Origin: Butyrivibrio sp. FCS014
GTDB lineage: Bacteria > Bacillota > Clostridia > Lachnospirales > Lachnospiraceae
Direction: 5' to 3'
Length of the DNA: 64,000 bases
Assembly: GCF_000526935.1 (NCBI RefSeq)
Contig: NZ_JAHA01000019.1
Span: 1-64,000, forward strand
Below, piece after piece: positions 40,310-58,089 of the stretch. The stretch's first letter is position 1, and every line of letters begins with the position of its first letter. The notes below the pieces were generated by a model. The model did not search any database. It had not been told where the DNA came from and saw only the letters and a list, made by a program, of their open reading frames with translations. Made by a program: the position numbers and the translations under genes.

Positions 40310-40346
40310 AATGCACCTCCTAAGTGTTGTGATCACGAAGGGTAAT

Positions 40347-40640: not shown

Positions 40641-40657
40641 TATTTAATTACTTAATG

Positions 40658-40686
40658 ATTTTATGTTCTTGATTAAAAAAAGTCAA
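40658..40686 (-). promoter_or_regulatory. sigma-A promoter of tyrS
   Basis: TTGACT (40686-40681), 17-nt spacer, TAAAAT (40663-40658) on the minus strand. It lies just outside the T-box leader and a few bases after the stop codon of the tandem binding protein gene. Confidence 0.75.
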
Positions 40687-40689
40687 CCC

Positions 40690-42585
40690 TTAGTACAGCC
40701 TCTTCCTTATATATTCATCCGCAACCGCCTGGTCATAAACCTTCTCATCGGTGATGATGCGGAAAGGCATCTGCTTGCCGCTGCAAAGATCCCGTATTGC
40801 CTTCATAAGCTGTGGTCCGATAACGGGATTACACTCAACGGCGCAGGAAAGCTCGCCTCTTACCATGGCTTCAAAGGCCTCCGTGGTGGCATCCACCGAG
40901 ATTATCTTAACGTCAACATCGGGCTTTATGCCGTGTTCCTTAAGCTCTTCGATTGCTCCAAGGGCCATATCATCATTCTGGGAAAAGATAATGTCGATAT
41001 CCCACTCATTGTTCTCGAGATATTCACGGACTACTTTTCTTCCTCCCTCAAAGGTGAAGTCGCCGTAGTCGGAATAGCTGATCTCATACCCGGGATTTTC
41101 CAAAAGAATTTCCCTGAAGCCCTGATCTCTTTCTTCTGTGGGAGAGGCGCCCACATTGCCCATGATCTCCATTATTCTCAAGGTGTCCTTGGTTTTACTT
41201 ACATTATCCCTGATCCATCGCATGGCCCTTCGGCCCTCTTCCACAAAGTCAGCCCCAATATAAGTGGTGGTGAGGTTCTCCTCGCGGTTCTCAACAACCA
41301 CGTTTCTATCGGACATGATAACAGGAATCCCGGCAGCTTTGGCTTCTCTTAAAACCTCATCCCAGCCCGTTTCAACAACGGGAGAGACCACGATAACATC
41401 CACGCCTTCATTTATAAAAGATCTGATGGCCTCAAACTGCTTCTCCTGAGACTGATCGGCTATCTCCATGTGAAGATCAATATTAAACTCTTTTGCCGAC
41501 TCTTCAATGGATTTGGTATTGGCAAGACGCCAGTTACTCTCCTGGCCTACCTGTGAATAGCCTACCTTTATCTTCCTGCCGTCATCAGCGGTTTCTGCAT
41601 TGATGCGGCTTAAATTTTCTTCAACATTTGTACTGTCAATAATATTGCTTCGAAGGATGACCTGCTTAGGAACGCCACTTTCGTTATTAAGGATGGAAAG
41701 GGCGTAGTCAATAGCTTCTTTTCCGCCTATAGGACAGGAAACGGTGGCCTTAAGCCTTCCCTGGGATACCAGGTCAAGCCCCTCGTCCACTCCTTTAAAG
41801 CCGTCGCAGTCTACAGTCATGACTTTTTTATCCAGCCCCATGAACCTTAAGGCATCGCAGACTCCGAGGGCCATACTGTCACTGTAGGTGAATACCACAT
41901 CGGCGTCTTTAACAATGCGCTTGGCAGTGATGGTCATATCATAGGCGGCATCCTTGGACTCTGTGCCAAGATAGACCTCATGGATATTTATGTTCTTTAC
42001 ATTTTCAACGGCGCTCTTAAATCCGGAGAGCCTCTCTGTTCCCTGGACAGAGGTGGGATTTCCGGACAGCACAACAACATCTCCTCCTTTTTCACCAAGG
42101 AGATTTACAATATAATTTCCTGCCTGCTGACCGATAACTTCATTGTCGGGACCGATATAAAGCGTGTAATCGAATCCTTCTACCGCTCTGTCCATAACGA
42201 TAACGGGAATGCCGCTGTCATGGACCTCTTTGATCTTATCTCCCATTATCTTCTCGTCGCAGGGAGAAATGATAAGAAGATCGATTCCAAAGCCTATGAG
42301 ATTGTCTATATCCTGGATCTGCTTGGAAGCATTTCCGGTAGCATCCGTTGTAACAATGCGAATGTCTTCGTATTTATCGGTCTCTTCCCTAAGCTCATTG
42401 ATAAGGGCGACTCTCCACTCCTCTCGCATATTGGCCTGGGACACGCCGATGATGGAAGACACGCCGTCCTTATTGCCACCTTCCCCGAAGGGAATATAGT
42501 GACAGCCGTAAAGAGCGATAGACAGGGAAGCCACCGCGATGAGCACAGCAAGAATATGCCATTTTGTTTTTATATATTCCGTCAC
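40690..42585 (-). CDS. membrane-anchored tandem sugar-binding protein (two Peripla_BP_4 domains), probable kinase co-sensor
   Basis: 631 residues. An N-terminal hydrophobic segment (L-A-V-L-I-A-V-A-S-L-S-I-A-L-Y) ends in a possible lipobox Cys 28. Domain 1 (about 44-318) is RbsB/LacI-like (I-G-V-S-Q-A-N, I-D-L-L-I-I-S-P-C-D, V-I-V-M-D-R-A). Domain 2 (about 338-628) is YtfQ-like (V-G-Y-S-Q-V-G-Q-E-S-N-W-R, V-S-P-V-V-E-T-G-W, D-D-M-A-L-G-A-I-E) and parallels the transporter's own binding protein at 48040. It overlaps the histidine kinase stop by 4 nt, so the two are translationally coupled. I infer it presents ligand to the kinase rather than to the ABC permease. Two domains in one chain are unusual. 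Confidence 0.8.
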   Translation of the reverse strand: MTEYIKTKWHILAVLIAVASLSIALYGCHYIPFGEGGNKDGVSSIIGVSQANMREEWRVALINELREETDKYEDIRIVTTDATGNASKQIQDIDNLIGFGIDLLIISPCDEKIMGDKIKEVHDSGIPVIVMDRAVEGFDYTLYIGPDNEVIGQQAGNYIVNLLGEKGGDVVVLSGNPTSVQGTERLSGFKSAVENVKNINIHEVYLGTESKDAAYDMTITAKRIVKDADVVFTYSDSMALGVCDALRFMGLDKKVMTVDCDGFKGVDEGLDLVSQGRLKATVSCPIGGKEAIDYALSILNNESGVPKQVILRSNIIDSTNVEENLSRINAETADDGRKIKVGYSQVGQESNWRLANTKSIEESAKEFNIDLHMEIADQSQEKQFEAIRSFINEGVDVIVVSPVVETGWDEVLREAKAAGIPVIMSDRNVVVENREENLTTTYIGADFVEEGRRAMRWIRDNVSKTKDTLRIMEIMGNVGASPTEERDQGFREILLENPGYEISYSDYGDFTFEGGRKVVREYLENNEWDIDIIFSQNDDMALGAIEELKEHGIKPDVDVKIISVDATTEAFEAMVRGELSCAVECNPVIGPQLMKAIRDLCSGKQMPFRIITDEKVYDQAVADEYIRKRLY

Positions 42586-44372
42586 CTTATGCCATTCTCC
42601 TCTTCAATATATGGAATGTATATGGAGATCCTGGTGCCGATATCTTCGGTACTCTCGACTTCAACCCTGTAATCGTCATGGTATCTTTGCTGGAGTCTTT
42701 CTTTTACATAGAAAAGTCCAAAGCTCTCCTTGTCGTCAGCCTTTATCTCAGTGGACCCGGTACCGGTCTTTAGAAGTTCTCTTAAAGAATCTCTGGTGTG
42801 CTCATCCATTCCCTTTCCGTCATCCTCAACAGTCATGCAAATGCTGTCCTCTATGCGGTGTACGGAAATATTGATATGCCCGGTTCCTCTCTTAAGCTTA
42901 ATGCCGTGATAGATGGCATTCTCCACAAGAGGCTGAAGGATAAGCTTGGGAACCTGGTGCTTCTCGCAGTCCTCATCGGAATCTATCTCAAAAAGAAGCT
43001 TGTCTTCATATCTTGTCTTCTGAACGTAAAGGTAACTGGATATATAGTTGATCTCTTCCTTGATGGTTATATAATCCTTGCCGTGGGAAAGGCTTATTCT
43101 GAAAACGTTTGTCAGAGCGTCCACGAGACTCACTATATCTTTTGCCCCGTGCTCACGGGCCATCCAGTTGATGGTATCTAACGTGTTATAGAGAAAGTGT
43201 GGCTTGAACTGCTCCTGAACGATCTTAAGCTCCGCCTTCCTTTTGAGGTCTTCCTCCTGCCTTACCCTGTCAAGAAGCTCCTGGATCCTTTCGATCATGT
43301 GGTTGAAACTCATGCCAAGGTCATAGATCTCGTCGCGGCTGTTGCTCTCAAACCTCAAGGAAAGATTACCTTCCCTGGTCTTTCTCATAAGATCACGAAG
43401 GTGCTTGATTGGTCTTGTAATGTTGTCGGAAACCCTAAGGGACAGATACTGAACCAGGAAAAGAGTCGCCACCAGAATTCCGCCGAAGACCCACATCATC
43501 CTGTTGTAATCCCCCATCAGCTCATCATAGGAGGTGACGCTGACAGTCTTCCAGCCGGTCATATCCGACCTCTTAAAGCGCACAAGGTACCTGCTGTTTC
43601 CGATGCCGACGGATATGGTCTCGTTTTCGTCGGTGAGCCACTTAGGGTCTATCCTGTAGACCACCGGATTGATGGGCGTGTACACCATGTGGTCCTCTTC
43701 ATCCAGCACGAAAACAAAGCCCTCGCCTCCAAGCTGAGAGTCCCTAATGGCTGAGGAAATGATGCTGTGCCCTATGTCCACCAAAAGAACACCTTCAACT
43801 TCATCGCTGTCTTTGTCCTTGACCGCTTTGACTATGGAAAAAACATCATCCACTGAATATCCAACATCTGTGGCTATATTCCTGCCGGTGACGGTACTTA
43901 TCATGTGACTTGAATCAGGATCCAAAAGAGCTGCTTTGTACCAGCTCTCCTTTTGAAAAGAGTCCCTGGAAATTCTGGTGATGCCGGTACTTATATAGGC
44001 GTCCCCGGAATCCGCATAGAGCATCCCTGCGATCTCATCGTACCTGCCCATAACATTCTGCATGGTCTTTATGATCTCGCCTGCCTTCACATCACCGCCG
44101 CCCTTAATGTCTGCAGCAGCAATCTCATCAGATAAGGTAAGAACCAGCTTATCAAGGTCCTCCATATAGGTGTCCAGAGTACGGCTTACCTGAGTCACGG
44201 TCTGAGATGACCTTTGAGTTATATTCTTTCTTGCTTCACCGGCCGAGAAGGTGATTCCCACGATTCCGACCAAAATAAAGGGGATGAGGGCAATGAATAT
44301 CTGTGACAGGATCAGCTTGGTTCGTATCTTGGTTATTCCCGCTCCTGTCCTTAGCATATTCATTACTCTCAT
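42582..44372 (-). CDS. YesM/LytS-type sensor histidine kinase
   Basis: 596 residues. Two membrane helices (about 20-42 and 293-313) enclose an extracytoplasmic dCache-like domain. HAMP follows (about 314-366), then the His_kinase domain with Q-F-K-P-H-F-L-Y-N-T-L-D-T-I (His 392) and an ATPase domain (V-E-N-A-I-Y-H-G, D-D-G-K-G-M, S-F-G-L-F-Y-V-K-E-R). It lies between the yjfF-type permease and the tandem binding protein gene. The likely partner is the AraC-type regulator at 50430-51647, the only response regulator of that class here. Confidence 0.92.
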   Translation of the reverse strand: MRVMNMLRTGAGITKIRTKLILSQIFIALIPFILVGIVGITFSAGEARKNITQRSSQTVTQVSRTLDTYMEDLDKLVLTLSDEIAAADIKGGGDVKAGEIIKTMQNVMGRYDEIAGMLYADSGDAYISTGITRISRDSFQKESWYKAALLDPDSSHMISTVTGRNIATDVGYSVDDVFSIVKAVKDKDSDEVEGVLLVDIGHSIISSAIRDSQLGGEGFVFVLDEEDHMVYTPINPVVYRIDPKWLTDENETISVGIGNSRYLVRFKRSDMTGWKTVSVTSYDELMGDYNRMMWVFGGILVATLFLVQYLSLRVSDNITRPIKHLRDLMRKTREGNLSLRFESNSRDEIYDLGMSFNHMIERIQELLDRVRQEEDLKRKAELKIVQEQFKPHFLYNTLDTINWMAREHGAKDIVSLVDALTNVFRISLSHGKDYITIKEEINYISSYLYVQKTRYEDKLLFEIDSDEDCEKHQVPKLILQPLVENAIYHGIKLKRGTGHINISVHRIEDSICMTVEDDGKGMDEHTRDSLRELLKTGTGSTEIKADDKESFGLFYVKERLQQRYHDDYRVEVESTEDIGTRISIYIPYIEEENGIR

Positions 44373-44398: not shown

Positions 44399-45403
44399 TC
44401 AGGCAGCTGCCAGGCTCTTGCCCTTAGCAGACTCAGCCCTAACAGCAATGATCCTCTGAACCACGATAAAGAAACAAAGAAGACCCGCGATGGTTACCTT
44501 GGTCCACCATGTATTCAGATTCTCGTATGTAACAATGGTCTGGATGATGCCCTGTATCATGGCACCTACAGCAGTTCCAAACACCGATCCGACACCGCCG
44601 GTAAGAAGTGTTCCCCCGATAACCGCTGAAGAAATGGCATCAAGCTCCATACCCATGTTCTGCAGTCCGTATCCTGCCAGGGTGTAGAAACTAAATACAA
44701 CACCGGCCAAAGATGCGCAGAAACTGCTTATAATATACGCTCCAATCTTGGTTCTTGCAACATTAAGACCCATAAGTTCTGCAGACTGTTCACTTCCTCC
44801 GATGGCATATACCGCTCTTCCGAAGGGAGTCTTTTTGAGAATATAAAGACCTGCCACAAGAACTGCCACAAATATAAGAACGTAATAGTAAATCTTTCCG
44901 TTAAGCGCCTTGGATTCACCAAGCTTTATCTGTATCCTTCCAAGAGCCATGAACTTGAAGAACTCATCCGTGATGGGGATGGATGCTTCGCTTATAACGA
45001 CGCACAATCCTCTCATTAGGAACTGTCCCGCCAGAGTAACGATGAATGGCTGAAGCTTAAAGTAGTGGATAAGACTTCCCTGCACTGCTCCGATGATTAT
45101 ACCGATGATCAGCGCCATGGGAATTACAATATAAGAAGGAATTCCCTTCTGAAGGCTGTAGGCCATGAACACACCGGTAAAGGCTATGGTTGAGGAGATT
45201 GAAATATCAATGCCTCCTGTTATAAGAACGAAGGTAATACCTATACCCGCTATCATCAGATATGCATTGTCATTAAAAAGGTTTAAGAAAGTAGACAATG
45301 AAAAGAAATGGTCATATCTCACTGATCCGAAGATAAACATTATCAGGAACAGCACAATTGTCATTGTCAGTGAAATATTCTTTATACGCAGCTTCTCTCT
45401 CAT
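44399..45403 (-). CDS. ABC sugar permease, YjfF-type
   Basis: 334-residue BPD_transp_2 (ribose/xylose/arabinose family) permease with about ten membrane helices. G-G-I-D-I-S-I-S-S-T-I-A-F-T-G and A-I-G-G-S-E-Q-S-A-E-L-M-G-L-N-V are the family loops contacting the ATPase. Order and paired arrangement match ytfQ-ytfR-ytfT-yjfF of the galactofuranose transporter. It overlaps the preceding permease by 4 nt. Confidence 0.88.
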   Translation of the reverse strand: MREKLRIKNISLTMTIVLFLIMFIFGSVRYDHFFSLSTFLNLFNDNAYLMIAGIGITFVLITGGIDISISSTIAFTGVFMAYSLQKGIPSYIVIPMALIIGIIIGAVQGSLIHYFKLQPFIVTLAGQFLMRGLCVVISEASIPITDEFFKFMALGRIQIKLGESKALNGKIYYYVLIFVAVLVAGLYILKKTPFGRAVYAIGGSEQSAELMGLNVARTKIGAYIISSFCASLAGVVFSFYTLAGYGLQNMGMELDAISSAVIGGTLLTGGVGSVFGTAVGAMIQGIIQTIVTYENLNTWWTKVTIAGLLCFFIVVQRIIAVRAESAKGKSLAAA

Positions 45404-46440
45404 AATGCAACTGCCTCCTCTTTCTTCTTGCTTACTGCAATCTTGCTGATATGCAGCTTGAATTTGCCGGACTGTGAAAGGCAGATCACAATGATAAGAA
45501 GCGCTTTAAGCACTCTGATATAAGCTGCGGGTACGCCCAAGGCAAGAACTGTTGTGGTGATACTCTGAACGATAAGAGCTCCTATTACACTTGAGAAGAT
45601 TGAAAATCTTCCGCCCATGAGGTTGGTTCCGCCGATGGCTACAGCAAGAATGGCATCAAGCTCAATATTAAGTCCTGCATTATTACAGTCAGCGCCTTTG
45701 ATTCCTGCACTCTCAATAAGTCCCGCAACTGATGCGAAGGCTCCTGAAATAGTGTAGATTGCAAGAAGGAATCTGTTTACCTTGATTCCCGCAAACTTTG
45801 AAGCCAGTGAATTACATCCGATGGATTCAAGGAAAAGTCCGAAAGCAGATCTATGAACAAACAGCAGCAAGATCCCTACAAGGAAAAGAACTATGTACAA
45901 TGGGAATGGGAGTCCGAATATATATCCTCCGTTTATGAAGTAATACGCATCGGAATTGATAGTGATGATCTTGCCGCTGGTGATCAGCTGTGCAATACCG
46001 CGTCCCGCAACCAGCAGGATCATGGTTGCAACGATTGGCTGTATCTTGATCTGGGCTACCAGGAATCCGTTCCAGAGACCGCAGATGATTCCTGCGCAAA
46101 CTGCAAGGATTATAGCCATGGCAACATTGCCGCCCAGTCCGGGAAGCAGGTTCCCGTTTATGATGCTGCAGGCAATGGCTCCGCTTATAGCCATAACAGA
46201 ACCTACGGAAATATCGGTTCCGCCGGTAGCCAGTACCATGGTCATGCCTGCTGCAAGGATCATGAGCTTTCCGCCGTTTCTGAAAATATCAATGATCCTG
46301 CCGTAGAAATGTCCGTCCACTATGGAAATGGATAAGAACTCACCTTTTGTCATTATGGTGTTGAACAATATGATGGTCAGGAAAATAATCACAGGCCAGA
46401 AAGCCTGTTTCTGGGATAATTTATTTATCTTATTTTTCAT
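45400..46440 (-). CDS. ABC sugar permease, YtfT-type
   Basis: 346-residue BPD_transp_2 permease. It shows V-L-A-T-G-G-T-D-I-S-V-G-S-V-M-A-I-S-G and E-S-I-G-C-N-S-L-A-S-K-F-A-G-I, with A-V-A-I-G-G-T-N-L-M-G-G-R-F near the end. It overlaps the ATPase stop by 4 nt and the second permease by 4 nt, so the three are coupled. Together with the YjfF-type protein it forms a heterodimeric channel. Confidence 0.9.
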   Translation of the reverse strand: MKNKINKLSQKQAFWPVIIFLTIILFNTIMTKGEFLSISIVDGHFYGRIIDIFRNGGKLMILAAGMTMVLATGGTDISVGSVMAISGAIACSIINGNLLPGLGGNVAMAIILAVCAGIICGLWNGFLVAQIKIQPIVATMILLVAGRGIAQLITSGKIITINSDAYYFINGGYIFGLPFPLYIVLFLVGILLLFVHRSAFGLFLESIGCNSLASKFAGIKVNRFLLAIYTISGAFASVAGLIESAGIKGADCNNAGLNIELDAILAVAIGGTNLMGGRFSIFSSVIGALIVQSITTTVLALGVPAAYIRVLKALLIIVICLSQSGKFKLHISKIAVSKKKEEAVAL

Positions 46441-47966
46441 TTACCTTCTCCTCCTGCCATGATCTGCATTACCGCTCCTTCTGAGATGTTGTCCCCTACA
46501 ACTTCTCCTGCCTTCTCCATATCCTTGAGAACGACAATTCTTCTGCAGCATCTAAGCTCTTCATCAAGCTCGGATGATATAAAGAGAACGGCCATACCCT
46601 GTGCTGCAAGATCAATGACTATCTTCTGGATCTCGGCCTTTGTACCGATATCGATTCCCCTGGTGGGCTCATCCAGCATAAGAAGCTGCGGATTTGTGGC
46701 AAGCCATCTTGCAAGGATAACCTTCTGCTGATTGCCTCCCGACAGGTTCTTTATAAGCTGATCCGCGTTGGGAGTTTTTATCTCCAGCTTCTTGATGTAT
46801 TCGTCGGCTATCTTCTGAGCCTCTTTTTTCGATATCTTTTTAAACAGACCTTTCTTGGCCTGAAGTGCCAGAGCCATGTTGTCCCTGATGGAGAGGTCTC
46901 CTATGATACCTTCCGTCTTTCTGTTCTCAGGGCAAAATGCCAGGTCTTTTCTTATGGCATCCAGAGGATGCTTTAGGTGAACCTTCTCCCCGTTGATAGT
47001 AAGTTCACCTTCATTTACCTGATCTATTCCAAACAGTACTCTTGCCGTTTCCGATCTTCCGGATCCAAGAAGTCCTGAAAGCCCCAGTACCTCACCTCGT
47101 GAAATTGTAAGATCCATACCCGAGATACTTCCCTGATGTGATACGTTCTTCATGGAAATCAGCTCATCGCCTGTTTTTGTTCCTTCTTTTTCGGCCTGAC
47201 CTTCCTTCAAAGATTCATTAAGGGCCTGATAGTCCTTACCGATCATCTTTGATACCAGTTCCATTCTGGGAAGATCGGCGGTATTGTAAGTGCCTACATA
47301 CCCGCCGCTTCTAAGAATTGTGATCCTGTCTGTTACTTCATAAACCTGATCAAGGAAGTGGGTTACGAAGATGATTCCCATTCCTTCCTCACGAAGCCTC
47401 TTCATGATTGCAAACAACTTATCTACTTCAACCTTGGACAGTGAGCTCGTGGGCTCATCCAGAATCAGTACCTTCGCCTGTATGTCACTGGCTCTTGCTA
47501 TTGCCACCATCTGCTGAATAGCTACCGAATAGTTATCCAGTCTCTTATTTACATCAAGTTTAAGATCAAATTTCTCAAGAAGTTTTGTAGCCTCTTTGCT
47601 CATGGTTGCCCAGTCGATGGAGCCCATCTTTGTTCTGGGCGCTCTGCCGATATATATGTTCTCAGCAACCGACAGGTTGGGACACAGATTAACCTCCTGA
47701 TAAACCGTTGAAATGCCCAGCTGCTGGGCTTCATTGGTGGATCTTGGATGGATCTTTTTCCCCTCCAGCTCGATCTTGCCTTCATCTCTTTCCTCTACAC
47801 CGGTAAGTACCTTTATAAGTGTTGACTTGCCGGCACCGTTTTCCCCAAGAAGTGCGTGGATCTCTCTCGCTTCAAGCTCAAAATGTACATCGTGCAGCGC
47901 GATCACTGCCTTGCCGAAGGTCTTGGTTATACCTTCCATTGTTAAGAGTTTGGTCTGACTGCTCAC
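46437..47966 (-). CDS. ABC sugar importer ATPase with two nucleotide-binding domains, YtfR-type
   Basis: 509 residues. Domain 1 has Walker A G-E-N-G-A-G-K-S-T-L and Walker B L-I-L-D-E-P-T. Domain 2 has the relaxed P-loop L-S-G-L-L-G-S-G-R-S-E-T usual for this family, with the signature L-S-G-G-N-Q-Q-K-V and Walker B L-M-L-D-E-P-T-R-G-I-D. It follows the binding protein gene by 73 nt. Confidence 0.93.
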   Translation of the reverse strand: MSSQTKLLTMEGITKTFGKAVIALHDVHFELEAREIHALLGENGAGKSTLIKVLTGVEERDEGKIELEGKKIHPRSTNEAQQLGISTVYQEVNLCPNLSVAENIYIGRAPRTKMGSIDWATMSKEATKLLEKFDLKLDVNKRLDNYSVAIQQMVAIARASDIQAKVLILDEPTSSLSKVEVDKLFAIMKRLREEGMGIIFVTHFLDQVYEVTDRITILRSGGYVGTYNTADLPRMELVSKMIGKDYQALNESLKEGQAEKEGTKTGDELISMKNVSHQGSISGMDLTISRGEVLGLSGLLGSGRSETARVLFGIDQVNEGELTINGEKVHLKHPLDAIRKDLAFCPENRKTEGIIGDLSIRDNMALALQAKKGLFKKISKKEAQKIADEYIKKLEIKTPNADQLIKNLSGGNQQKVILARWLATNPQLLMLDEPTRGIDIGTKAEIQKIVIDLAAQGMAVLFISSELDEELRCCRRIVVLKDMEKAGEVVGDNISEGAVMQIMAGGEGK

Positions 47967-48039: not shown

Positions 48040-49086
48040 TCAATATGCGCGGGAATCGATCACATCTGCAGCGATATCTGAAGTGAATACGCCGTCCACT
48101 GACTTAACCCACTTTTCAACTGACTCGCCGTTCTTAAGCTTTGCAGCTGTCTCGAAGAAGAGCGGTCCAAGAAGAGGGTTACACTCAACTGTGCAGTTAG
48201 CCTCGCCTGCTACCATAGCCTCGAAGATGCCCTTTACGCCGTCTACAGAAACTGTAACGATGTCTTCGCCGGGCTTAAGGCCAGCTTCTTTGATAGCTTC
48301 GATTGCGCCAAGAGCCATGTCGTCGTTGTGAGCGTATACGCCTACGATATCAGGATTGGACTTAAGGAATGACTCCATAACTTCCTTACCCTGTGCTCTT
48401 GTGAAGTCACCTGTCTGAGAAGCTACGATCTCGATGTCGGGATAGTTTGCAGCTATCTCCTCATCAAAACCTGTCTTTCTGTCTGTTGCAGCAGAAGCAC
48501 CAACTGTTCCCTCAAGCTCTACGATCTTACCCTTGCCGCCGATGAGCTCTGCCATCTGCTTAGCAGCTTCTTTTCCCTCTTCGATGAAGTCGGAACCGAT
48601 GAATGTAGCATAGAGGCTCTCATCAACATCTGCTGTTCTGTCAAGAAGAATGATGGGGATTCCTGCATCCTGTGCCTCAGCAAAAACCTGATCCCAACCG
48701 GTCTCAACTACAGGTGCAAGTCCGATAACATCAACGTCCTGCTCGATGAAGCTCTTGATAGCCTTGATCTGGTTCTCCTGCTTCTGCTGAGCATCAGCGA
48801 ACTTCAGCTCTACAGTATCAGTATGCTCTGCAGCATAAGTCTGGATTGACATTGTCTCGGCATCTCTCCAGCCTGACTCCTGTCCGATCTGAGCGAAACC
48901 AACAACAAGCTTCTCGCTTCCTGCATCCTCAGTTGCAGGTGCCTCAGCCTTGGGAGCCTCAGCCTCTTCAATTGTAGCGGCAGGTGCCTCTGATGCAGCA
49001 GGTGCAGGAGCAGCGCTTCCGCAGCCGGCGATTGATGCAGCAACCATAGCTGCACACAGAATTGAGCTTAAAAATCTTTTCTTCAT
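48040..49086 (-). CDS. sugar ABC transporter substrate-binding lipoprotein, YtfQ-type
   Basis: 348 residues: a signal with lipobox A-S-I-A-G-C-G (Cys 22), an Ala/Pro/Glu-rich linker, then a Peripla_BP_4 domain from about residue 58. It closely follows E. coli YtfQ patterns: V-G-F-A-Q-I-G-Q-E-S-G-W-R, A-D-A-Q-Q-K-Q-E-N-Q-I-K-A, L-A-P-V-V-E-T-G-W, T-G-D-F-T-R-A-Q-G-K-E-V-M-E-S-F and A-H-N-D-D-M-A-L-G-A-I. YtfQ binds galactofuranose; arabinofuranose-type ligands fit the neighbouring GH43 gene. Ligand remains inference. A strong AAGGAGG precedes the ATG. Confidence 0.92.
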   Translation of the reverse strand: MKKRFLSSILCAAMVAASIAGCGSAAPAPAASEAPAATIEEAEAPKAEAPATEDAGSEKLVVGFAQIGQESGWRDAETMSIQTYAAEHTDTVELKFADAQQKQENQIKAIKSFIEQDVDVIGLAPVVETGWDQVFAEAQDAGIPIILLDRTADVDESLYATFIGSDFIEEGKEAAKQMAELIGGKGKIVELEGTVGASAATDRKTGFDEEIAANYPDIEIVASQTGDFTRAQGKEVMESFLKSNPDIVGVYAHNDDMALGAIEAIKEAGLKPGEDIVTVSVDGVKGIFEAMVAGEANCTVECNPLLGPLFFETAAKLKNGESVEKWVKSVDGVFTSDIAADVIDSRAY

Positions 49087-49299: not shown

Positions 49300-50214
49300 T
49301 TACTTTTTCTTATTTGCCTCTTTATATTCAGCAAAGAGTTTCTCTAGATACTCCGGGTCATTTGAAGCTTTCTTGACATCCTCATCACGGTTCTGGGAAA
49401 AGAGCCAGCTTATAAGATTGGACATACTGTTTATGCCCTTCTTCTCACCATTAATTTGGCCTTTTTTGTAATTTGCCCTCGCTATTAACTGTTTTGCATT
49501 TAATTCCTGCAATTCTTCTGATAACATATTTGCCACCTCCGCCATATGTTCTCTGAGAAATGGTTTTAAAATGAAGTCCTCCGGCATTACTCCCAATGCC
49601 CTGCCTACAGCTTCTCCTATATCTTTCAGCTCTTTTCTGAATTCTCGTATAGTCTGTATAAACCATGAATACTCATAAAGTGGTCTACAGGCTTCCATAA
49701 GTTCTTTGTTTCGCCCATAGTTTATATTTATCATCCTGACCTTTACTTCTATATCTGCATTTTTCCTTGTACTCTTGGAAAAAGAATCGCTGAGCCTAAG
49801 TATCTTTTCATCAGGCTCATCCTTTGTTCCATTGTAGAATACAACCAGCTTAGGTGTAGGTATCCGCAATAATTCCTCACCATATTTATCAAGATCATTG
49901 GATGATATATATCCATCATATACCGCCGATATGTACTGCATCATCCTGAGGGGCATATTGGGATTATATGTTGATTGATGTTCATACAAACTGATATATC
50001 CTGCAAATAAGAATGACGTATCATTCTTCATATGCACATAAAGATATTCCTCAAGCGTATTAAACTCAATCTCAGTTTCGTCTTCATAGGAAGAACCATT
50101 AACTGCATTGTACAGACTAAGTGTCCATTTCTTGTTTTCCGGTCTTCCGAAAACGAAGTTAAAGAGCCGATCCTTGTGTTCCCGGCTTGCGCTTATTACT
50201 TGTAATTCTTTCAA
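49300..50214 (-). CDS. Rpn-family PD-(D/E)XK nuclease / transposase-like protein
   Basis: 304 residues of the Rpn (recombination-promoting nuclease; formerly transposase_31) family, abundant in Lachnospiraceae. Seen: D-R-L-F-N-F-V-F-G, the acidic nuclease strand Y-V-H-M-K-N-D-T-S-F-L-F-A, then L-Y-E-H-Q-S-T-Y-N-P-N-M-P-L-R and P-K-L-V-V-F-Y-N-G-T-K-D. The C-terminal half is helical with E-K-K-G-I-N-S-M and a Lys-rich end. The start is TTG 50214 with an AAGGAG box. It is flanked by terminators on both sides and interrupts the sugar locus, so it is its own unit and may have arrived by transfer. Confidence 0.85.
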   Translation of the reverse strand: MKELQVISASREHKDRLFNFVFGRPENKKWTLSLYNAVNGSSYEDETEIEFNTLEEYLYVHMKNDTSFLFAGYISLYEHQSTYNPNMPLRMMQYISAVYDGYISSNDLDKYGEELLRIPTPKLVVFYNGTKDEPDEKILRLSDSFSKSTRKNADIEVKVRMININYGRNKELMEACRPLYEYSWFIQTIREFRKELKDIGEAVGRALGVMPEDFILKPFLREHMAEVANMLSEELQELNAKQLIARANYKKGQINGEKKGINSMSNLISWLFSQNRDEDVKKASNDPEYLEKLFAEYKEANKKK

Positions 50215-50429: not shown

Positions 50430-51647
50430 TTATTTATTCTCCTTAATAGATTGCCTGTACTCGGCAGGACTGATTCCAAGTTTCTTCTTGAACACAAGAC
50501 TGAAATACTGCTGGGAGGTGTAACCCACCTTCTCTGCCACCTCGTAGATCTTCATCTCCTCATCGTGAAGAAGGATACTCGCCTTCCTCATTCGAAGATT
50601 GGTGAGATAATCAACAAAGGTACATCCGGCCTCCTTACGGAAGATTCGGCTTAAGTATGCCACCGAAAGTCCTACATTGTCTGCGGCCTCCTGAAGAGAG
50701 AATTCCTCTCTGGAATAGTTCTCCTGGATCAGCTGCATTACAGCTTCAAGAATTGAGGAATATCCGGTATTCTCAGAAGCCTTGGAAAGTGCTTCCTGAT
50801 AAGCGGCTGCAATCGAGCCGGCTCCGTTTCCTGCGGAAGTTTCTATTACACACTTAACAGGGAGGATTCCGGAAATGTAATTTATATACTCATTGCATTT
50901 CTCTTCCAGTTCCTCTGAAGAAATCTGATCTGTAACAAGAACCAGGTTCCCTGACTCGTCCCTGCACCTGCTCTCAAGGGCAAGGGATGCAAACATCTCA
51001 AGAGCGATGTTCTCGGAGACAAAGTATAGAAGGTCCTCATTCCAGTTGCTGTCGATATCCTCAGTGGGCTTTGTATCTATTCGGACAAGGATCAGGGAAT
51101 ATTCCTCAGGGAGCTTTAAATTCAGATATTTGCACTCTTGAGTGATCTCATCCTCTGAAAGCCGTCCATCGATTATCTTCTTGGAAAGCTCCGCAATAAG
51201 CAGTTCCCTGCTCTCGTTCATCTTGTCCCTGGCCCACTCCAGGTACTTCTTTTCCATCTCTTCGTCGCTGCGCTTGCTTAGAGCCTCCCGGATCCTTCCA
51301 ATGAGCTCATCGAAAGGATCCTCCATAAGAGGCTTTAATACATAGTCAAATACACCAAGGCCAACAGCCTTTCTTGCATATTCAAAAAGATCATATCCTG
51401 TCACTATCACTACAAGTGCCTGAGGGTAAAGCTTTTTCAGCTCCTTTATGAAATCCAGGCCGTTCAAAAAAGGCATGTTGATGTCCACAAAAAACACATC
51501 TATTACTGTGGACTTGGCCTTCTCAAGGGCCACCTCACCGTCTTCCGCTTCAGCCACAACTTCAAAGTCGTCGTAGGCTTTAAGAAAACTAATGATACCT
51601 CTTCTGATCATAGGTTCATCATCTGCTACAAGAGTTCTGTATTTCAT
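50430..51647 (-). CDS. YesN-type response regulator with AraC DNA-binding domain
   Basis: 405 residues. The receiver domain holds V-A-D-D-E-P-M-I-R-R-G and the phospho-acceptor in F-F-V-D-I-N-M-P-F (Asp 55), ending Y-V-L-K-P-L. A central helical region (about 140-300) is followed by a double HTH (F-S-L-Q-E-A-A-D-N-V-G-L-S-V-A-Y-L-S-R-I-F-R-K, then Y-E-V-A-E-K-V-G-Y-T-S-Q-Q-Y-F-S). A GGGGG ribosome site precedes the ATG. It lies 67 nt after the GH43 gene and is probably the partner of the kinase at 42582-44372. Confidence 0.93.
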   Translation of the reverse strand: MKYRTLVADDEPMIRRGIISFLKAYDDFEVVAEAEDGEVALEKAKSTVIDVFFVDINMPFLNGLDFIKELKKLYPQALVVIVTGYDLFEYARKAVGLGVFDYVLKPLMEDPFDELIGRIREALSKRSDEEMEKKYLEWARDKMNESRELLIAELSKKIIDGRLSEDEITQECKYLNLKLPEEYSLILVRIDTKPTEDIDSNWNEDLLYFVSENIALEMFASLALESRCRDESGNLVLVTDQISSEELEEKCNEYINYISGILPVKCVIETSAGNGAGSIAAAYQEALSKASENTGYSSILEAVMQLIQENYSREEFSLQEAADNVGLSVAYLSRIFRKEAGCTFVDYLTNLRMRKASILLHDEEMKIYEVAEKVGYTSQQYFSLVFKKKLGISPAEYRQSIKENK

Positions 51648-51714: not shown

Positions 51715-54700
51715 TTAAAACCATTTAAGTATCTTTTTTATAATACTTGTCACTACCCTGGCAACAGTCTTGACCACTGTCTTAACAACTGCTGTGATAG
51801 CCTGTACTACTTTCTCTACAGGAACCTTCGGAGCTTCCGGTTTGTCGGGCTCATCAGGTGTATCCGGTTCATCAGGAGTATCTGGCTCTTCAGGATCCTC
51901 AGGATTCTCGGGCTCTTCAGGTTCCTCAATTACCGGAGGCTCAGGATTGGGAGCGGTTGCACTCTCATAATCGCAGTACTCAATGTAGTCCAGAGCCGCT
52001 GTCTCTTTTCCGCTTACACCTGTTACGATAACGGTATTGCTGCCTTCATTCAAAGCCACCTTAAGTTCGTATCCGAACCAGTTGTCTACGCACAGTCTGT
52101 TGCCTGAGTTTGCGTTAAAGTTGTAAACAGCTTTCTCATATTCCTGTCCGTTGACGATTGCCTTAAGTGCAGCACCGTTAACATTTGCTGATGCGCCAAG
52201 ATACAGCATGTACTCTCCAGCCTGTGCCACATCAAAGGTAAACTCAGCGGTCTTTGACTCGTCATCAAATCCATATACACATGCATCAGCTGATGAATTG
52301 TAAGTCTGAGTCGCACCAAGTCCTGAAAGCACTGCATCCTCAGCCTCAAGTCGTACATAGGAAGCCTTCTTTGTTCCTGAAGGTGTCTTGATCATGTCAG
52401 TATACTCCGCTGCAGTTCCGAGGAAAGGTGTGCCGTCTTCATTCCAGTAGGATCTCTGTACTCTTACGCCTCTTCCGTTCCAGCCGCCTCCTGCATAAAC
52501 TGTTGCGTGATAAACAAGGTAGTCCTCCTTGCCATCGGGAGATTTAACAAAGCATGCATGACCTGTTGAGAAGGTTGTGCTGTCGTTCTTTTCAAATACA
52601 GGCTTTGTTGCCTTGATCCAGGATGACTTCTCCATGGGATCCGCACCCTTCTTGAGTGTCAGGCATCCGAGGCAGTAAGTATCGGACCAGGAACCGCTTG
52701 CTGAATATACGATATTAACTGTTCCGTCAGGAGCTACAGCGATTTCAGGTCCCTCATTGATTGTGGGATGCTCGTTAACTTCCCATGCAAATTCAGGTCT
52801 TGAAAGCTCAACTCTGTCTCCGGAAATTGTTGTGGGTGAATCCATCTTTGCAATGTAGAGTCTCTGCTCTCCATCGACAAATCCATCCCAGCCTGACCAG
52901 ATTGCATAGAGCTGTCCGTCAAGTTCAAGAACAGTCTGGTCAATAGCCCATCTGTCAGTCTCAGGGCTCATCTTGCCCTTAAATACGTACTCACCCTGCG
53001 CATCGTCAGTAACGCTTTCAAGAACCATCATGCGATGATCTGCTCCGGCGCCGGCGGTGTAGTAGATGTACCACTTGCCGTCAATAAAGTGAAGCTCAGG
53101 TGCCCAGAGCTCTCTTGTGGGCTGATCTCCTGAAGGCATGTATACGCATACGGGCTCTACTTCGCCGATCCTTGAAAGCTCAGCGGACTTTGTAACCCAG
53201 ATTCCGGTGTCGTTGCGGCCCATACGAACATAGTAGTAATATCCGTCATGGTAAGTAACGAAGGGATCTGCTCCGTAGTTTACGATCATGCTCTCAAAGG
53301 TGTCGGTTGAATTAAATCTGACCGTATACTTCTGGACATAGGAAGGATCGTCAGTGTTATAAACAGTCACGTAGCTCTCCGGCCTTTCTGCGGTTGCCTG
53401 AGTAACCTGTGCCTTGAAGCTTTCGTTTGCGCCATCTTCAAACTTAACGGATACAGCAGGGAGATTCTCCAGGTCACCTTCAACGGTATATACCTTCTTA
53501 TCTCTGCTAAATCCCTCAAGAGCTGTATCTCCGATCATGATCTCATACTCAGGTTCTTCCATAGTATGGAAAAGAATGTAATCCAGTTCCGCAAAGCTGT
53601 TGTCACGGCCTGAGTGAGAAACGCTGAAGGTGTTCTCACCTTCCTTAAGATCAACGTATACGCTGTAAAGTGACCATACATCCCAAACAGTTGCCTTGGT
53701 ATATTCAACAACCTTAGCAGATGCCTCGTCGCCGTTTACCCAGTATCTGTGGGAAGTATTGGGGAATGCTCCCTTGTCGCCGTCTGCAGCGATGTCTACT
53801 CTGTAGGTTCCATCTGCAGGGGCATTTATCTTCATGGTTACAACAGATGATGTATCATCGATATATCCAACTTTGTAGCCGCCGGAAGCATCGCCTCTTT
53901 GAGTGACTCTTGCCTTTCCGGTAACTGTTCCGCTCTCAGCCTCAATCTTAACGGTGATAGCCGTAATCTCTTTTGCCCCGATCTCATCCATGGTAAGTGC
54001 TCTGTTGTAAATCTTAAGGTTGTCGATATAGCCCTTAAAATTCCTTCCTCCTGTAAGTGATCTGCCAAGGAACATATCAAGGTCTCTTCCAAGCTCGGAG
54101 AGGTTTCTGTTCTTGACACTTCCAAGATACAGTCCGTCGGCATAGAAAGCAATCACATGATCATTCACGGTGAGGTCAAGATGGATCCATCTGCCGTTAT
54201 TTCCGTAGCTTGCACTGCGAACGCTCTTAACGCCCTTTGTTCCTCTTGCTGTGTTTCCGGCTGCGGTCTCATCGTCAGTTACTCTCACAAAGAGATACTT
54301 ATCGGAACTGCCGCCAAGTCCAAGAACCATGCTCTCGGAATCTGCGGAAAGAGCCTTAACATCAAGGCTTATTGTCAGTTCTTTTGCCCCGTCAAAAGAG
54401 CCTTTGCCAAAAGCAGCATAAGCTTCATCTGAGCCATCAAGATAAAGAGCTTTGCCGTTTGCCTCGTCCTTAAGGACTGCGCCTCCAAGGAGGTTAAGTC
54501 CAAGATCTTCGCCCTTGGATACTGCCTTAGTACCGTCTACGTTCTCGAAATCATACTCAGCTACAGGCTCTGCCTGTCTGTCTAATTTGGCAAAAGAGCC
54601 TTCTGCTACGCCGTAAGCTTCAACAAGCCTTTCATACTCAGTTGCGGTAACAGGAAGGATTACGCCGTGCTTGCAACCTTCCTGGGCTGTGTATTCATCC

Positions 54701-57700
54701 TCATTAAGAACATGGATGCTGTTAGGGACGCTAAGATCGGTGGTTGTGAAAGGAATATATCCTCTTGTTGCTCCGCCGTACTCATCCAGCATTACGCACC
54801 ATTCATCCCTATCATTGAACTTGAACATGGTGCCACCCTCGTAATTTCCTCTGAAAGACTCAATGCAGCCTTCTGCTGTGTTTGCAATGTAGCTGTAGTT
54901 ATTGCCAACCACGTTAAAGGTCAGGTTACCTATTGTCTTAGTGGTCACCTCATCGCCATAGGAGCGAAGCTTGCCGCTGGCCTTATCAAGTCTTACGTAC
55001 ATTCCGTCTTCTATCTTGGTAAGTCTGTAGTAATCGTCTCCAACCTTCAGCATGGAAGTATCGATATTGCTTCCGAAGTTATTGAAGAGCTCAGGCTCTG
55101 TAAAGTTGTAGAAGTCTCTTGTTCTTGAAACAAAGGTATACTGTCTTGCATAGTTGTCAGCTGCGATCTTGCTGGCCCAGAATACAAGGTACTCTCCTGT
55201 TGCCTCATCATAGATTGCTTCAGGAGCCCATGCACATCCGCCGCCGATGGAACCTGCTACATCAACATTTCTTTCGTTGGTCCAGTTCACAAGGTCTGTG
55301 GACTCCCAGATTGTAAGAGCTGTGCTGCCCTGAGTTGAAAGTCTGTCCCAGGGAATGTTATTGCCGTACTTGTAGATATCCTGATCTGTTGCAAGAAGGA
55401 AGAATCTGTCTCCCTCAGCGCTTCTTATGATATAAGGATCTCTTGTTGCTTTGTCACTTACGTCTGACTTAAGTACTGCCTCGTTGCCGTTAAGAGCTGT
55501 CCAGTTAAGACCGTCGTCGCTTATACCGTAAAAAATATCCTGCTCACCCTTTTCTCCGGGAATTTCCTTGAAGTGTGCATAGAGATATCCAACGTAAGCT
55601 TCATCAGCATTTTCTTTTGCAAGAACAGTGACTTCAAATTCCCTGGAAAGAGAAACACCGTCAATAGTTCCGGTAACGGTAAGTGTTACCTTCTCGTTCT
55701 TGCTGCCTCTTGTAACAACGCCTGCAGGGATGTCATAATAGCCATCCTGCTCTTTGTCTTTGGAAGTGATCACTTCTTCGTTGTCAGACTTCCAGGACAG
55801 CTCTGCCTCTCCGGAAACTGAAGGAAGTGTGATGTTTCCTCTAATGGCATCTGCTCCGGGGATTACAAGCTCATCCAGGATCTTTTTGAGGTCTTCCTTG
55901 ATCTTGGCATCTCCCAGGATAACAGTACAGGTAACTGAGAGATCTGCATCTCCAAGGTTCTCCACTTCTTCGGGAAGAGTTACTGCTCCCTCTACCTCAA
56001 TGGATTTACCCTTAAAATCAGTGTCTTTTACGTTATTCCAGGTTACAGATGCAGTATGGTCGCCTTTACTTGTTGCTACTGTTACTTCTGTGGGAAGTGC
56101 CGCATTTACATCTTCAGCGTCCGCATCGTCCGAAACCTTTATATCATCGGGATTTACTGCTTCGATGAAGTTTGCCACATCCACCGCTCCTGAAGGGAGT
56201 CTCTGGGGTGTAATGGTGGGTCCCATTACCTCAAGAACAGTCTCGCCGTTGGCGTCCTTGGTGAAGTGTATCCTGTCTATGCACAGCTGCCTTGGCTCAG
56301 TGCTGTTAAGATCATGGTGGCTGTGATAAACAATGAACAGCTCAGTTCCGTCGGGAGATACTGTGATGCCGTGATGTCCCGTACCGTGAACTGTCGAATT
56401 GGATTTCATTATGGGGTTATAATCGTATTTCTTAAAGTCACCAAGAGGTGAATCAGACACAGCAAAGGCTGAACCGTAGTGGATGCTCTGGAAATGAGCT
56501 CCTGAATAGGTGAGGTAATACTTGCCCTCATAAGTCAGCATGAAGGGTCCCTCATTGATGTTGCCCATATCCTGATCCCAGCCCTGGTTAGCTGCAACGA
56601 TCTGCTTTAAGGTATCTTTTTTGATGGTCTTCATGTCATCTGAAAGCTCAGCGCCCCAGATAACATTTCCGCCTGTGAAGCGAACATAATAGATGTAATA
56701 TTTCCCTGAAGCTTCATCATAGAAAATATGTGCATCTATATTCTTCTCAGTTTGGTCCATGGGCTCTTTAACTTCCTGAGTGAAAGGTCCCAGAGGAGAA
56801 TCACTTGTTGCTACACAGATCTGCTCATTTGCCACATAGTACATGTAGAAGGTTCCGTCTTTTTCGATAAGGTCGGGAGCCCAGAATCCGGTTGTACCCC
56901 AGCAGTCTTCTTTGCTGAGTGCATAGCCCTGATCTGTCCAGTGAACAAGATCCGTAGATGTGTAAACCTTTATTCCATGGGTGTCGTCTCCGGCATTGGT
57001 GGGATAAAGGAAATAAGTTCCGTTGTGATACAGAACATCGGGATCTGCGCAGTGATTCAGAAGAGGATTTGTATAGCTGTCATATAAAGCTTCCTCGTCA
57101 TACTCACTTACCGCAAGATTTTTAAAGCTTGAATGAGAAAGCCAGTTCCTCATTCCGATTCCGCCGCTAGCGTGAGTTGTATCGTTGATATAGAGCTTGG
57201 CGTAATTCTCACCGTTATAATCCGCATAGCAGGTAATATGAGAACCGCTGGCAACTACGGTAAGATGATAGCTTTTGCCATACTCAACCTTCATCTTCTT
57301 GGTAGCTATCTCATACCAGTTGTTTCCGGAGCATCGTCCAAGGATCATCTCCTGTCCTTTGGCGTTGATTCCAAGATAATATCCGAAATACCCGTCGTTT
57401 TGGCGATCGGCACCTTTTGATGCACGGAAAAGGATTCCGCCCTGGGCACTGGATTTATCGGAAAGATCCGCCTGTCTTTCTACGGTTACATCTGCTTCCA
57501 GCACAAAGTTGTCAAAGTCCTGTCTCTTAGAGATTGCCTTGTTTCCATGACCGCCGTCGATCCTTACCACATCATCTGATGCAGACCAGGTTCCCTGTGC
57601 AGGACCTGTGTAAAGATCGAACTGTGACAGATCATTCATGTCTACTGCCCAGAGAAGATCTCCTCTTCCGGGAACAGCTGTCTGTCTTGGATCTGTCGCA

Positions 57701-58089
57701 GGTGCGCTCTTTGCAGTTACAAAAAATTCTTCTGATTCTTCCTCGAGTTCCTCCTCAGGTTCTTCCTTATCGAGTTCTTCCTCGACTTCCTCCTCGGGCT
57801 CTTCCTCGTCTTCCGGGATCTCGCCTTTAGCAGCCTTATCTTTTTCTTCTTCAGGCTTTTCCTCATCTTCATTTACGATATTGGAACTTTTCTCTTTTCC
57901 GGCTTCTAAATCCTCTGAATTAGCAGCGCCGTTTCCGGCCGAACCTTCGTCCGTCTGATCATTCTCAGCTTCAGTCGGAGCATCATTTACCGGCATTTCT
58001 TCAGCCGCATAGGCAACCTGTGAGCCTATGGTCTGCAAACCCAAAGCTGCGGCCAGAGCCAGTGCATAGAACCTACTGTTCTTTTTCAA
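51715..58089 (-). CDS. secreted multidomain GH43 arabinanase/arabinofuranosidase-like protein, 2124 residues
   Basis: Order of parts: signal peptide (1-29); Glu-rich stretch (35-122); concanavalin-like domain (145-330). GH43 module 1 is about 341-630, with acidic sites in H-C-A-D-P (D349), N-I-D-A-H (D452) and N-I-N-E-G-P (E513). Two Ig-like domains follow (660-725, 728-823), then a GH43-like propeller 2 (831-1160, T-R-D-P-Y, N-I-D-T-S, N-Y-E-G-G), a LamG domain (1175-1365) and a CBM6/35-like domain (1377-1508). Module 3 is about 1600-1890 (G-A-D-P-F D1608, A-I-D-Q D1717, T-I-N-E-G-P E1779). Last are a CBM6/35-like domain (1910-2042), a Pro/Glu/Asp linker and a cationic tail (2090-2124). Probably hydrolyses arabinan-type side chains at the cell surface. 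The start is TTG 58089 with a GGGGG box. No LPxTG or SLH domain is seen. Confidence 0.88.
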   Translation of the reverse strand: MKKNSRFYALALAAALGLQTIGSQVAYAAEEMPVNDAPTEAENDQTDEGSAGNGAANSEDLEAGKEKSSNIVNEDEEKPEEEKDKAAKGEIPEDEEEPEEEVEEELDKEEPEEELEEESEEFFVTAKSAPATDPRQTAVPGRGDLLWAVDMNDLSQFDLYTGPAQGTWSASDDVVRIDGGHGNKAISKRQDFDNFVLEADVTVERQADLSDKSSAQGGILFRASKGADRQNDGYFGYYLGINAKGQEMILGRCSGNNWYEIATKKMKVEYGKSYHLTVVASGSHITCYADYNGENYAKLYINDTTHASGGIGMRNWLSHSSFKNLAVSEYDEEALYDSYTNPLLNHCADPDVLYHNGTYFLYPTNAGDDTHGIKVYTSTDLVHWTDQGYALSKEDCWGTTGFWAPDLIEKDGTFYMYYVANEQICVATSDSPLGPFTQEVKEPMDQTEKNIDAHIFYDEASGKYYIYYVRFTGGNVIWGAELSDDMKTIKKDTLKQIVAANQGWDQDMGNINEGPFMLTYEGKYYLTYSGAHFQSIHYGSAFAVSDSPLGDFKKYDYNPIMKSNSTVHGTGHHGITVSPDGTELFIVYHSHHDLNSTEPRQLCIDRIHFTKDANGETVLEVMGPTITPQRLPSGAVDVANFIEAVNPDDIKVSDDADAEDVNAALPTEVTVATSKGDHTASVTWNNVKDTDFKGKSIEVEGAVTLPEEVENLGDADLSVTCTVILGDAKIKEDLKKILDELVIPGADAIRGNITLPSVSGEAELSWKSDNEEVITSKDKEQDGYYDIPAGVVTRGSKNEKVTLTVTGTIDGVSLSREFEVTVLAKENADEAYVGYLYAHFKEIPGEKGEQDIFYGISDDGLNWTALNGNEAVLKSDVSDKATRDPYIIRSAEGDRFFLLATDQDIYKYGNNIPWDRLSTQGSTALTIWESTDLVNWTNERNVDVAGSIGGGCAWAPEAIYDEATGEYLVFWASKIAADNYARQYTFVSRTRDFYNFTEPELFNNFGSNIDTSMLKVGDDYYRLTKIEDGMYVRLDKASGKLRSYGDEVTTKTIGNLTFNVVGNNYSYIANTAEGCIESFRGNYEGGTMFKFNDRDEWCVMLDEYGGATRGYIPFTTTDLSVPNSIHVLNEDEYTAQEGCKHGVILPVTATEYERLVEAYGVAEGSFAKLDRQAEPVAEYDFENVDGTKAVSKGEDLGLNLLGGAVLKDEANGKALYLDGSDEAYAAFGKGSFDGAKELTISLDVKALSADSESMVLGLGGSSDKYLFVRVTDDETAAGNTARGTKGVKSVRSASYGNNGRWIHLDLTVNDHVIAFYADGLYLGSVKNRNLSELGRDLDMFLGRSLTGGRNFKGYIDNLKIYNRALTMDEIGAKEITAITVKIEAESGTVTGKARVTQRGDASGGYKVGYIDDTSSVVTMKINAPADGTYRVDIAADGDKGAFPNTSHRYWVNGDEASAKVVEYTKATVWDVWSLYSVYVDLKEGENTFSVSHSGRDNSFAELDYILFHTMEEPEYEIMIGDTALEGFSRDKKVYTVEGDLENLPAVSVKFEDGANESFKAQVTQATAERPESYVTVYNTDDPSYVQKYTVRFNSTDTFESMIVNYGADPFVTYHDGYYYYVRMGRNDTGIWVTKSAELSRIGEVEPVCVYMPSGDQPTRELWAPELHFIDGKWYIYYTAGAGADHRMMVLESVTDDAQGEYVFKGKMSPETDRWAIDQTVLELDGQLYAIWSGWDGFVDGEQRLYIAKMDSPTTISGDRVELSRPEFAWEVNEHPTINEGPEIAVAPDGTVNIVYSASGSWSDTYCLGCLTLKKGADPMEKSSWIKATKPVFEKNDSTTFSTGHACFVKSPDGKEDYLVYHATVYAGGGWNGRGVRVQRSYWNEDGTPFLGTAAEYTDMIKTPSGTKKASYVRLEAEDAVLSGLGATQTYNSSADACVYGFDDESKTAEFTFDVAQAGEYMLYLGASANVNGAALKAIVNGQEYEKAVYNFNANSGNRLCVDNWFGYELKVALNEGSNTVIVTGVSGKETAALDYIEYCDYESATAPNPEPPVIEEPEEPENPEDPEEPDTPDEPDTPDEPDKPEAPKVPVEKVVQAITAVVKTVVKTVARVVTSIIKKILKWF

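Follow-up and report, generated by a model that had tools for sequence, protein, structure and literature searches.

Why should a sugar-uptake locus whose transporter has its own binding protein encode another one, built of two binding domains and joined to a kinase gene? The question is raised by a stretch of 64,000 nucleotides (nt) from Butyrivibrio sp. FCS014 (contig NZ_JAHA01000019.1, positions 1 to 64,000; the window). Here a reverse-strand gene at 40690..42585, called as an open reading frame (ORF) with a GTG start, encodes a chain of 631 amino acids (aa) in which Pfam detects two Peripla_BP_4 stretches. We argue that this tandem protein is probably a ligand-binding co-receptor of a three-component sensor.

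The gene is preceded on the same strand by one for a YesM-type sensor histidine kinase (42582..44372; 596 aa) with the Pfam domains dCache_1 (residues 50-278), HAMP (316-365), His_kinase (380-459) and HATPase_c (477-588). The 4 nt shared by the two genes, GTGA at 42582..42585, hold the kinase stop and the tandem-protein start. Behind an N-terminal anchor (residues 1-28; 42502..42585) the tandem protein has an RbsB-like N-half (residues 44-325; 41611..42456), a linker (residues 326-337; 41575..41610) and a C-half predicted to be a YtfQ/GafA-like furanose-binding domain (residues 338-631; 40693..41574). The linker was delimited by its variability, the mean column entropy of residues 325-337 being 3.2 bits versus 1.6 and 1.4 in the two halves; the halves were assigned from NCBIfam models, solved chains and pocket residues. 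For the N-half the nearest NCBIfam model is RbsB (154 bits, under the equivalog cut-off of 337) and the closest solved chain is 2X7X, deposited as 'SENSOR PROTEIN', which we take to be the BT1754 fructose sensor. For the C-half the nearest model is YtfQ (320.9 bits, under the cut-off of 510) and the closest chains are 6HYH, 6HBD, 5OCP and 2VK2. The binding protein of the neighbouring transporter (48040..49086, reverse strand) also stays under the YtfQ cut-off, with 356.0 bits, and is 44% identical to the C-half (129/294). The first-pass annotation had described a single chain with RbsB-like and YtfQ-like domains behind a membrane anchor, a 4-nt overlap with the kinase gene and a likeness of the YtfQ-like half to the protein at 48040, and this description holds.

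With the tandem protein as query, 1514 of 7999 scored proteins were relatives at E ≤ 1e-20. The 120 of them that were listed are all 579-648 aa long and each covers at least 92% of the query; thus the tandem length is no product of a chance ORF. The window genome has one full-length copy. The sources name such relatives only for substrate binding or sugar transport.

Gene position and membrane anchor across genomes

From a scan of genome contigs we kept the best 80 of at least 593 confirmed loci. Those numbered L001-L046 match the tandem protein over most of its length; 45 have an intact long ORF, and 44 of them have upstream sequence, L040 being cut by a contig end. The excluded locus, L016 (7860-9805; Blautia sp. 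An249), has its tandem gene split over two ORFs. In all 44 loci with upstream sequence the tandem gene lies directly behind a response regulator gene (35 loci) or a kinase gene (9 loci), with gaps of -68 to +64 nt, a rough range counted from the first possible start codon. A kinase of the same family is within reach in 41 of the 44 loci, the ATPase and both permease types are present in 39 of 45 (the remaining six stretches are cut by contig ends) and a separate transporter-type binding protein is found in 40 of the 46. The order of the transporter genes around the module varies, and in L024 the transporter lies on the other strand. Tandem-bearing loci come from Bacillota and Spirochaetota, the hosts including Lachnospiraceae, Eubacteriaceae, Oscillospiraceae, Acutalibacteraceae, Sporomusaceae, Clostridiaceae, Bacillaceae, Paenibacillaceae and Spirochaetota among others.

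As a control we used 34 loci (L047-L080) whose best match was a single GafA-like protein, scoring regulators from 30 bits. None of the 34 has a binding protein directly behind a kinase or response regulator gene on the same strand. A kinase lies within 400 nt in seven, always divergently, and a kinase or regulator lies anywhere in the stretch in 16 (15 with a regulator threshold of 100 bits). The controls are unmatched by taxon: 18 of them are from outside Paenibacillaceae, and one of these 18 has a kinase or regulator in its stretch. What distinguishes the tandem gene is its fixed place right behind a kinase or regulator gene. In the Paenibacillus and Cohnella rows of L047-L077, kinases of another clade are encoded divergently from many of the GafA-type transporters; for most of these transporters the operon closes with a gene for a second GafA-like protein of a single domain.

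When 392 genomes were drawn evenly across the order, 13 of them matched at E ≤ 1e-120; three of these belong to the same genus, for which 18 genomes were listed. Among the 12 loci besides that of the window, a kinase or regulator gene directly precedes the tandem gene in 11 and one is cut by a contig end. Four of these 12 loci, namely the cut one and three of the others, lie on contigs that the first set had also covered. Of 398 genomes drawn from the phylum, 11 matched at E ≤ 1e-100, but only two did so over both halves. The trait is widespread but patchy.

Two loci of the same order, L135 and L136, have a divergent tandem gene behind kinase and regulator genes, and no GafA-type transporter gene was found in either stretch. 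In L135 a different CUT2 permease is encoded, along with a distant binding protein; in L136 the one match that resembles a binding protein is weak (29 bits) and lies towards the end of the stretch. In these tandem proteins (L135 7628-12443; L136 7838-12659) both sugar pockets are changed, and genes of the URO-D family are nearby. Here the tandem scaffold may, judging from the pocket residues, serve a non-canonical ligand.

The anchors often differ as well. One pattern detects a lipobox in 36 of 40 transporter binding proteins (the four without it are from spirochaetes) and in 15 of the 45 tandem proteins from the same loci. Under a looser pattern, 20 of the 45 tandem proteins whose N-terminus is readable have one, another 20 lack an anchor Cys and five are unclear. 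The window protein is among those that fit the looser pattern: its hydrophobic stretch ends in a lipobox-like LYGC at residue 28, which would allow cleavage and lipidation. Since 20 of 45 have no anchor Cys, many tandem proteins are probably held by an uncleaved helix.

Pockets and ancestry of the two halves

The pocket of the C-half, followed at 11 positions in 46 proteins, is invariant at nine; one further position is kept in 45 and one is Phe in 42 and Tyr in four. Residues W352, R353, D426, R427, R486, F510, N537, D538, D565 and E584 are identical to those of 2VK2 and 5OCP, and all but F510 (42/46) are present in every one of the 46; the pocket residues also equal those of the window transporter's binding protein. 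Residue 426 corresponds to Asp110/111 of GafA, which forms a pair with Arg38 (Arg38/Asp111 in precursor numbering), and is Asp in 46/46. GafA itself is a single-domain transporter protein; the C-half belongs to a sensor module. Five of six further tandem proteins retain the set, residue 510 being either Phe or Tyr, and in L090 Trp352 is replaced by Phe; in L096 and L098 most C-half pocket residues are gone and both pockets are changed.

The N-half pocket is more variable: of 46 proteins, 37 keep W57, 32 R58, 28 D132, 38 R185 and 25 N235. D132 is Gly in 18/18 Bacilli and Asp in 28/28 others; eight of the 18 Bacilli additionally have W57R, R58Q and R185T. In the window one of nine positions departs from the canonical set, residue 235 being Ser (Asn in most lone relatives). 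Among N-half relatives of 270-360 aa (120 listed of 222, some from very short contigs that may hold cut tandem genes) 61 of 94 have the full set and 84 of 94 have D132. Because the C-half pocket is nearly invariant and that of the N-half variable, the transported furanose would seem to be read by the C-half. The N-half pocket can apparently be dispensed with in one lineage; in others it may still have a ligand.

The first-pass annotation had supposed that the two domains might read two sugars, or one sugar and a competitor. A dual-ligand sensor of this kind, with for example L-arabinofuranose in one half and a second monosaccharide in the other and the kinase reading the combination, is the strongest of the alternatives, yet we consider it unlikely. 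A second ligand at the N-half of the window protein is possible since the pocket there is nearly intact, and Asp132 and Arg133 are kept in it and in the other 27 rows outside Bacilli (28/28). Taken together, the pocket positions of the N-half show higher conservation than chance would give (0.0006 of random sets are as conserved), and the full set occurs in the lone sensor proteins of 3/3 loci described below. Set against this are Ser235 of the window and the 18 Bacilli rows, in which the N-half pocket is altered while the module is otherwise kept. Overall we regard the supposition as weakly supported.

As to the ligand, proteins of this kind take L-arabinofuranose and in some cases D-galactofuranose, according to a GafA study (PMC10191376); a Phe of Shewanella GafA is said to exclude galactofuranose. 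At that position the tandem proteins have Asn (41/46) or His (5/46); since the excluding Phe is absent, both furanoses remain candidates, and either is possible. We also considered neighbouring arabinose genes as proof of the ligand, and rejected them: arabinose isomerase and ribulokinase families are not among the 25 commonest of the 118 Pfam families found in ORFs around the relatives, where GH2 and GH43_C2 domains do occur. This count covered 103 of 114 ORFs, of 300-1300 aa; nine probable antisense ORFs and two of unsuitable size were dropped, and eight near-duplicate loci were omitted. By this count, too, either furanose, of L-arabinose or of D-galactose, is possible.

The halves have different relatives. 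In a domain tree of 109 rows, including 25 of the 46 tandem proteins, the N-halves cluster with lone binding proteins, at a great distance from the C-halves, which cluster with GafA proteins. For the window, the N-half, the C-half and the transporter protein each belong to a different well-supported set, and a recent duplication of the neighbouring binding protein was rejected on that account. The C-halves are interspersed with single-domain GafA-like proteins from Paenibacillaceae. Among lone proteins, P0153 and P0158 branch outside the N-halves (support 100/96), as does P0169, weakly (96/60); P0128, P0130 and P0134 are inside, beside Clostridium tandem proteins. The outer branching of P0153, P0158 and P0169 favours a lone protein first and a fusion later.

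A search of four Paenibacillus genomes with P0158 found close lone N-type genes in three (L121, L122 and L123). In each of these, genes for a kinase, a regulator and the lone N-type protein follow one another next to a CUT2 transporter, and the binding protein of that transporter is likewise closer by score to the N-half than to the C-half. In L121 the lone sensor gives 129 bits to the NCBIfam model RbsB versus 110 to YtfQ, the transporter binding protein 146 to YtfQ versus 140 to RbsB, and the permease matches RbsC. Two of these genomes have a second kinase-regulator-binding protein set adjoining the first (L122 1168-5640; L123 646-5163).

Two kinase trees were made, the first of 58 rows, with another kinase of L027 and with L081, a duplicate of the window, and the second of 48 rows, with two divergent-tandem kinases. 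In the second tree the kinases of L121-L123 and those of tandem loci form one clade (99/98) of 37 rows, apart from 11 other kinases. The clade holds 31 tandem, three lone-protein and two divergent-tandem kinases and that of L016, which was labelled 'other' in both trees yet falls among the tandem kinases. The trees leave the order of the lone and tandem forms unsettled.

We also compared distances over 36 loci, with the mean transporter distance removed. Kinase distances followed those of the N-half with partial r of 0.44 for the outer domain and 0.67 for the catalytic part, and those of the C-half with 0.33 and 0.47, respectively. All four values exceed permutations (p 0.001), although such tests do not remove shared ancestry.

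Other genes of the window

All genes in the following account down to that of the GH43 protein are on the reverse strand. Upstream of the kinase gene, in the same direction and closely spaced, are genes for a YjfF-type permease (44399..45403, over the NCBIfam cut-off), a YtfT-type permease (45400..46440) and a YtfR-type double ABC (ATP-binding cassette) ATPase (46437..47966), the latter two below their cut-offs, and for the transporter's own YtfQ/GafA-like binding protein at 48040..49086, assigned by Pfam, NCBIfam and pairwise identity. The transporter genes (44399-49086) form an apparent operon with the tandem and kinase genes. At their far end is a Pfam-identified response regulator with an AraC-type helix-turn-helix (50430..51647), separated from the kinase gene by five genes. 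It is the likely partner of the kinase, as its homologues adjoin kinase and tandem genes in most other loci. Between regulator and transporter genes sits a gene at 49300..50214 with a weak Pfam match to Transposase_31, whose product we take to be PD-(D/E)XK/Rpn-like; no Rpn match was seen in the annotation of loci L001-L050.

Beyond the regulator, a gene at 51715..58089 encodes a protein of 2124 aa with two GH43 stretches, Laminin_G_3 and CBM_35. Its middle region gives 164 bits to an alpha-arabinofuranosidase model, below the cut-off of 500; the first GH43 part matches chains named endo-1,4-beta-xylanase, and the last matches chains named GH43, beta-xylosidase and arabinofuranosidase. The protein is a possible source of furanose for the sensor.

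Two features lie apart from the module. Rfam places a tetrahydrofolate (THF) riboswitch at 61234-61332 (89.4 bits), directly upstream of an ECF (energy-coupling factor) transporter gene at 61392-61958 on the forward strand. Next to the tandem gene, 40340-40690 resembles by eye a T-box leader with a terminator-like stem (40384-40352), for which no Rfam family reached its gathering score; the gene that follows looks by eye like a tyrosyl-tRNA synthetase, no search having been made.

Role of the tandem protein

Several systems resemble parts of this arrangement. In XylFII-LytS-YesN of Clostridium beijerinckii a xylose-binding co-sensor with one domain per chain reportedly forms a complex with the outer domain of the kinase. 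Chains 5XSD and 5XSJ, presumably XylFII, are among the N-half matches as weak, distant ones only, and the window protein differs from the single-domain partner of LytS in being two-domained. BT1754-type hybrid two-component sensors of Bacteroides are said to have a single binding domain fused to the kinase; 2X7X, of this type, is the solved chain closest to the N-half, whereas the window protein is separate from its kinase. BvgS-type kinases reportedly have tandem Venus-flytrap domains of a different binding-protein family, in a row and fused to the one kinase that they feed. AraPST of Geobacillus stearothermophilus is said to pair a binding protein linked to arabinose with a kinase and a regulator, all encoded close to an ABC transporter; should AraP have two binding domains, it may prove to be a described member of the tandem kind.

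Judged by analogy, the nearest tested parallel is CuaDSR of Ruminiclostridium cellulolyticum. There, as in the window, a binding protein, a HAMP-bearing kinase and a YesN/AraC-type regulator are encoded beside a sugar ABC importer with a second binding protein of its own; CuaD is a 410-aa lipoprotein for cellobiose, a co-sensor of high affinity that is distinct from the transporter's protein and contacts the outer part of the kinase with or without sugar (PMC10384115). Both traits recur here: binding protein, kinase and regulator are encoded together (44/44 loci adjoin a kinase or regulator gene), and the window has a separate transport protein at 48040-49086. Unlike CuaD, which binds cellobiose (its family was not compared), the window protein has two Peripla_BP_4 halves and a furanose-type pocket. 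A 2026 paper suggests that a PF13407 protein of Parageobacillus, not a lipoprotein, may act on the adjacent YesM-YesN pair (PMC13068155), and this protein may belong to the tandem family. The first-pass annotation had called the arrangement little described. For the tandem form we found no account in the literature searched, which omits most subscription journals, and to that extent we agree; co-sensing binding proteins for such kinases are already well known (CuaDSR, XylFII-LytS).

The architecture, the gene position, the conservation of the module, the intact C-half and variable N-half pockets and the kinship with lone N-type proteins are read from the sequences, and from them we infer a ligand, a docking mode, a direction of signal and target genes as follows. 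Because the pairing with the kinase recurs in distant bacteria, the tandem protein most likely reports a plant sugar to the kinase and does not serve uptake. Tethered outside the membrane, it would close its C-half on L-arabinofuranose or D-galactofuranose freed by secreted glycosidases, the same furanose that the neighbouring transporter's protein probably binds. It would then dock on the dCache_1 domain of the kinase (residues 50-278; 43539..44225, reverse strand), or alter an existing contact, mainly through the N-half, the kin of lone kinase-partner proteins. The kinase would phosphorylate the AraC-type regulator, which would switch on the furanose transporter and enzyme genes, perhaps including that of the GH43 protein.

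We favour the view that the N-half is the old kinase partner, to which the C-half was added to read L-arabinofuranose or galactofuranose. In its full form this proposal is tentative, and we give it somewhat less than an even chance. It describes a mosaic co-receptor: the N-half would be an inherited kinase-docking protein whose own pocket is dispensable, the C-half a sugar-reading head added from the transporter protein lineage, and one kinase family would have been re-aimed at a new sugar by extending the co-receptor, the kinase being left as it was. The branch of L096 and L098, with both pockets changed, would serve another ligand or operon.

Several observations weigh against the co-receptor or its mosaic origin. 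No kinase of this family was found in the stretches of L035 and L039 (2/44 loci), and in L045 it lies downstream of the tandem gene. Of the 16 Paenibacillaceae controls, 15 have a kinase or regulator in the stretch, and the divergent kinases within 400 nt of seven controls point the same way: as kinases are common near Paenibacillaceae GafA operons, kinase linkage as such is not peculiar to the tandem protein. In the domain tree the N-halves need three changes (two forced by well-supported branches) and the C-halves two (one forced); neither half forms one strict group, so a single fusion does not follow. The three lone-protein kinases never fall outside the tandem kinases, lying inside one subclade in the first tree and being unresolved in the second. 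The case for docking by the N-half is ancestry together with a modest correlation that phylogeny confounds. Finally, the kinase's own dCache domain could bind the ligand directly.

That last point gives an improbable alternative, in which sugar sensing falls to the kinase itself, the tandem protein having no other part than to restrain or tune it. The kinase does have a dCache_1 domain, and dCache domains often bind ligands. Retention of the tandem protein with the kinase and the near-invariance of the C-half furanose pocket speak for the co-receptor instead. The results on CuaDSR cut both ways: the two-component pair still responded without its binding protein, less efficiently, but the outer region of CuaS had no affinity for three sugars tested by calorimetry (PMC10384115). 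More improbable still is an extra binding protein that widens the range of the ABC importer beside an incidental kinase: the apparent operon with a YtfQ-type transporter, the C-half's 44% identity to its binding protein, the second GafA-like protein of some Paenibacillaceae GafA operons and the kinases near many of these would suit it, but the tandem gene strictly adjoins kinase or regulator genes, not permease genes (44/44 versus 0/34 controls), 40 of 46 loci have a separate transporter protein, many tandem proteins have no lipobox while transporter proteins of the same loci do, and L135 and L136 keep the module with no GafA-type transporter found. We therefore side with the first-pass annotation in preferring a co-sensor to a transporter part; a transporter-only role was ruled out as the leading explanation by the strict adjacency and by L135 and L136.

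As a co-receptor, the tandem protein would bear on a wider question: binding-protein co-sensors are known as single cases, but as far as we know it is not known how they switch ligand yet keep their kinase. With one half that tracks the kinase lineage and another with a near-invariant pocket, the family would open this question to domain swaps. For Butyrivibrio and its kin, it provides a candidate furanose sensor.

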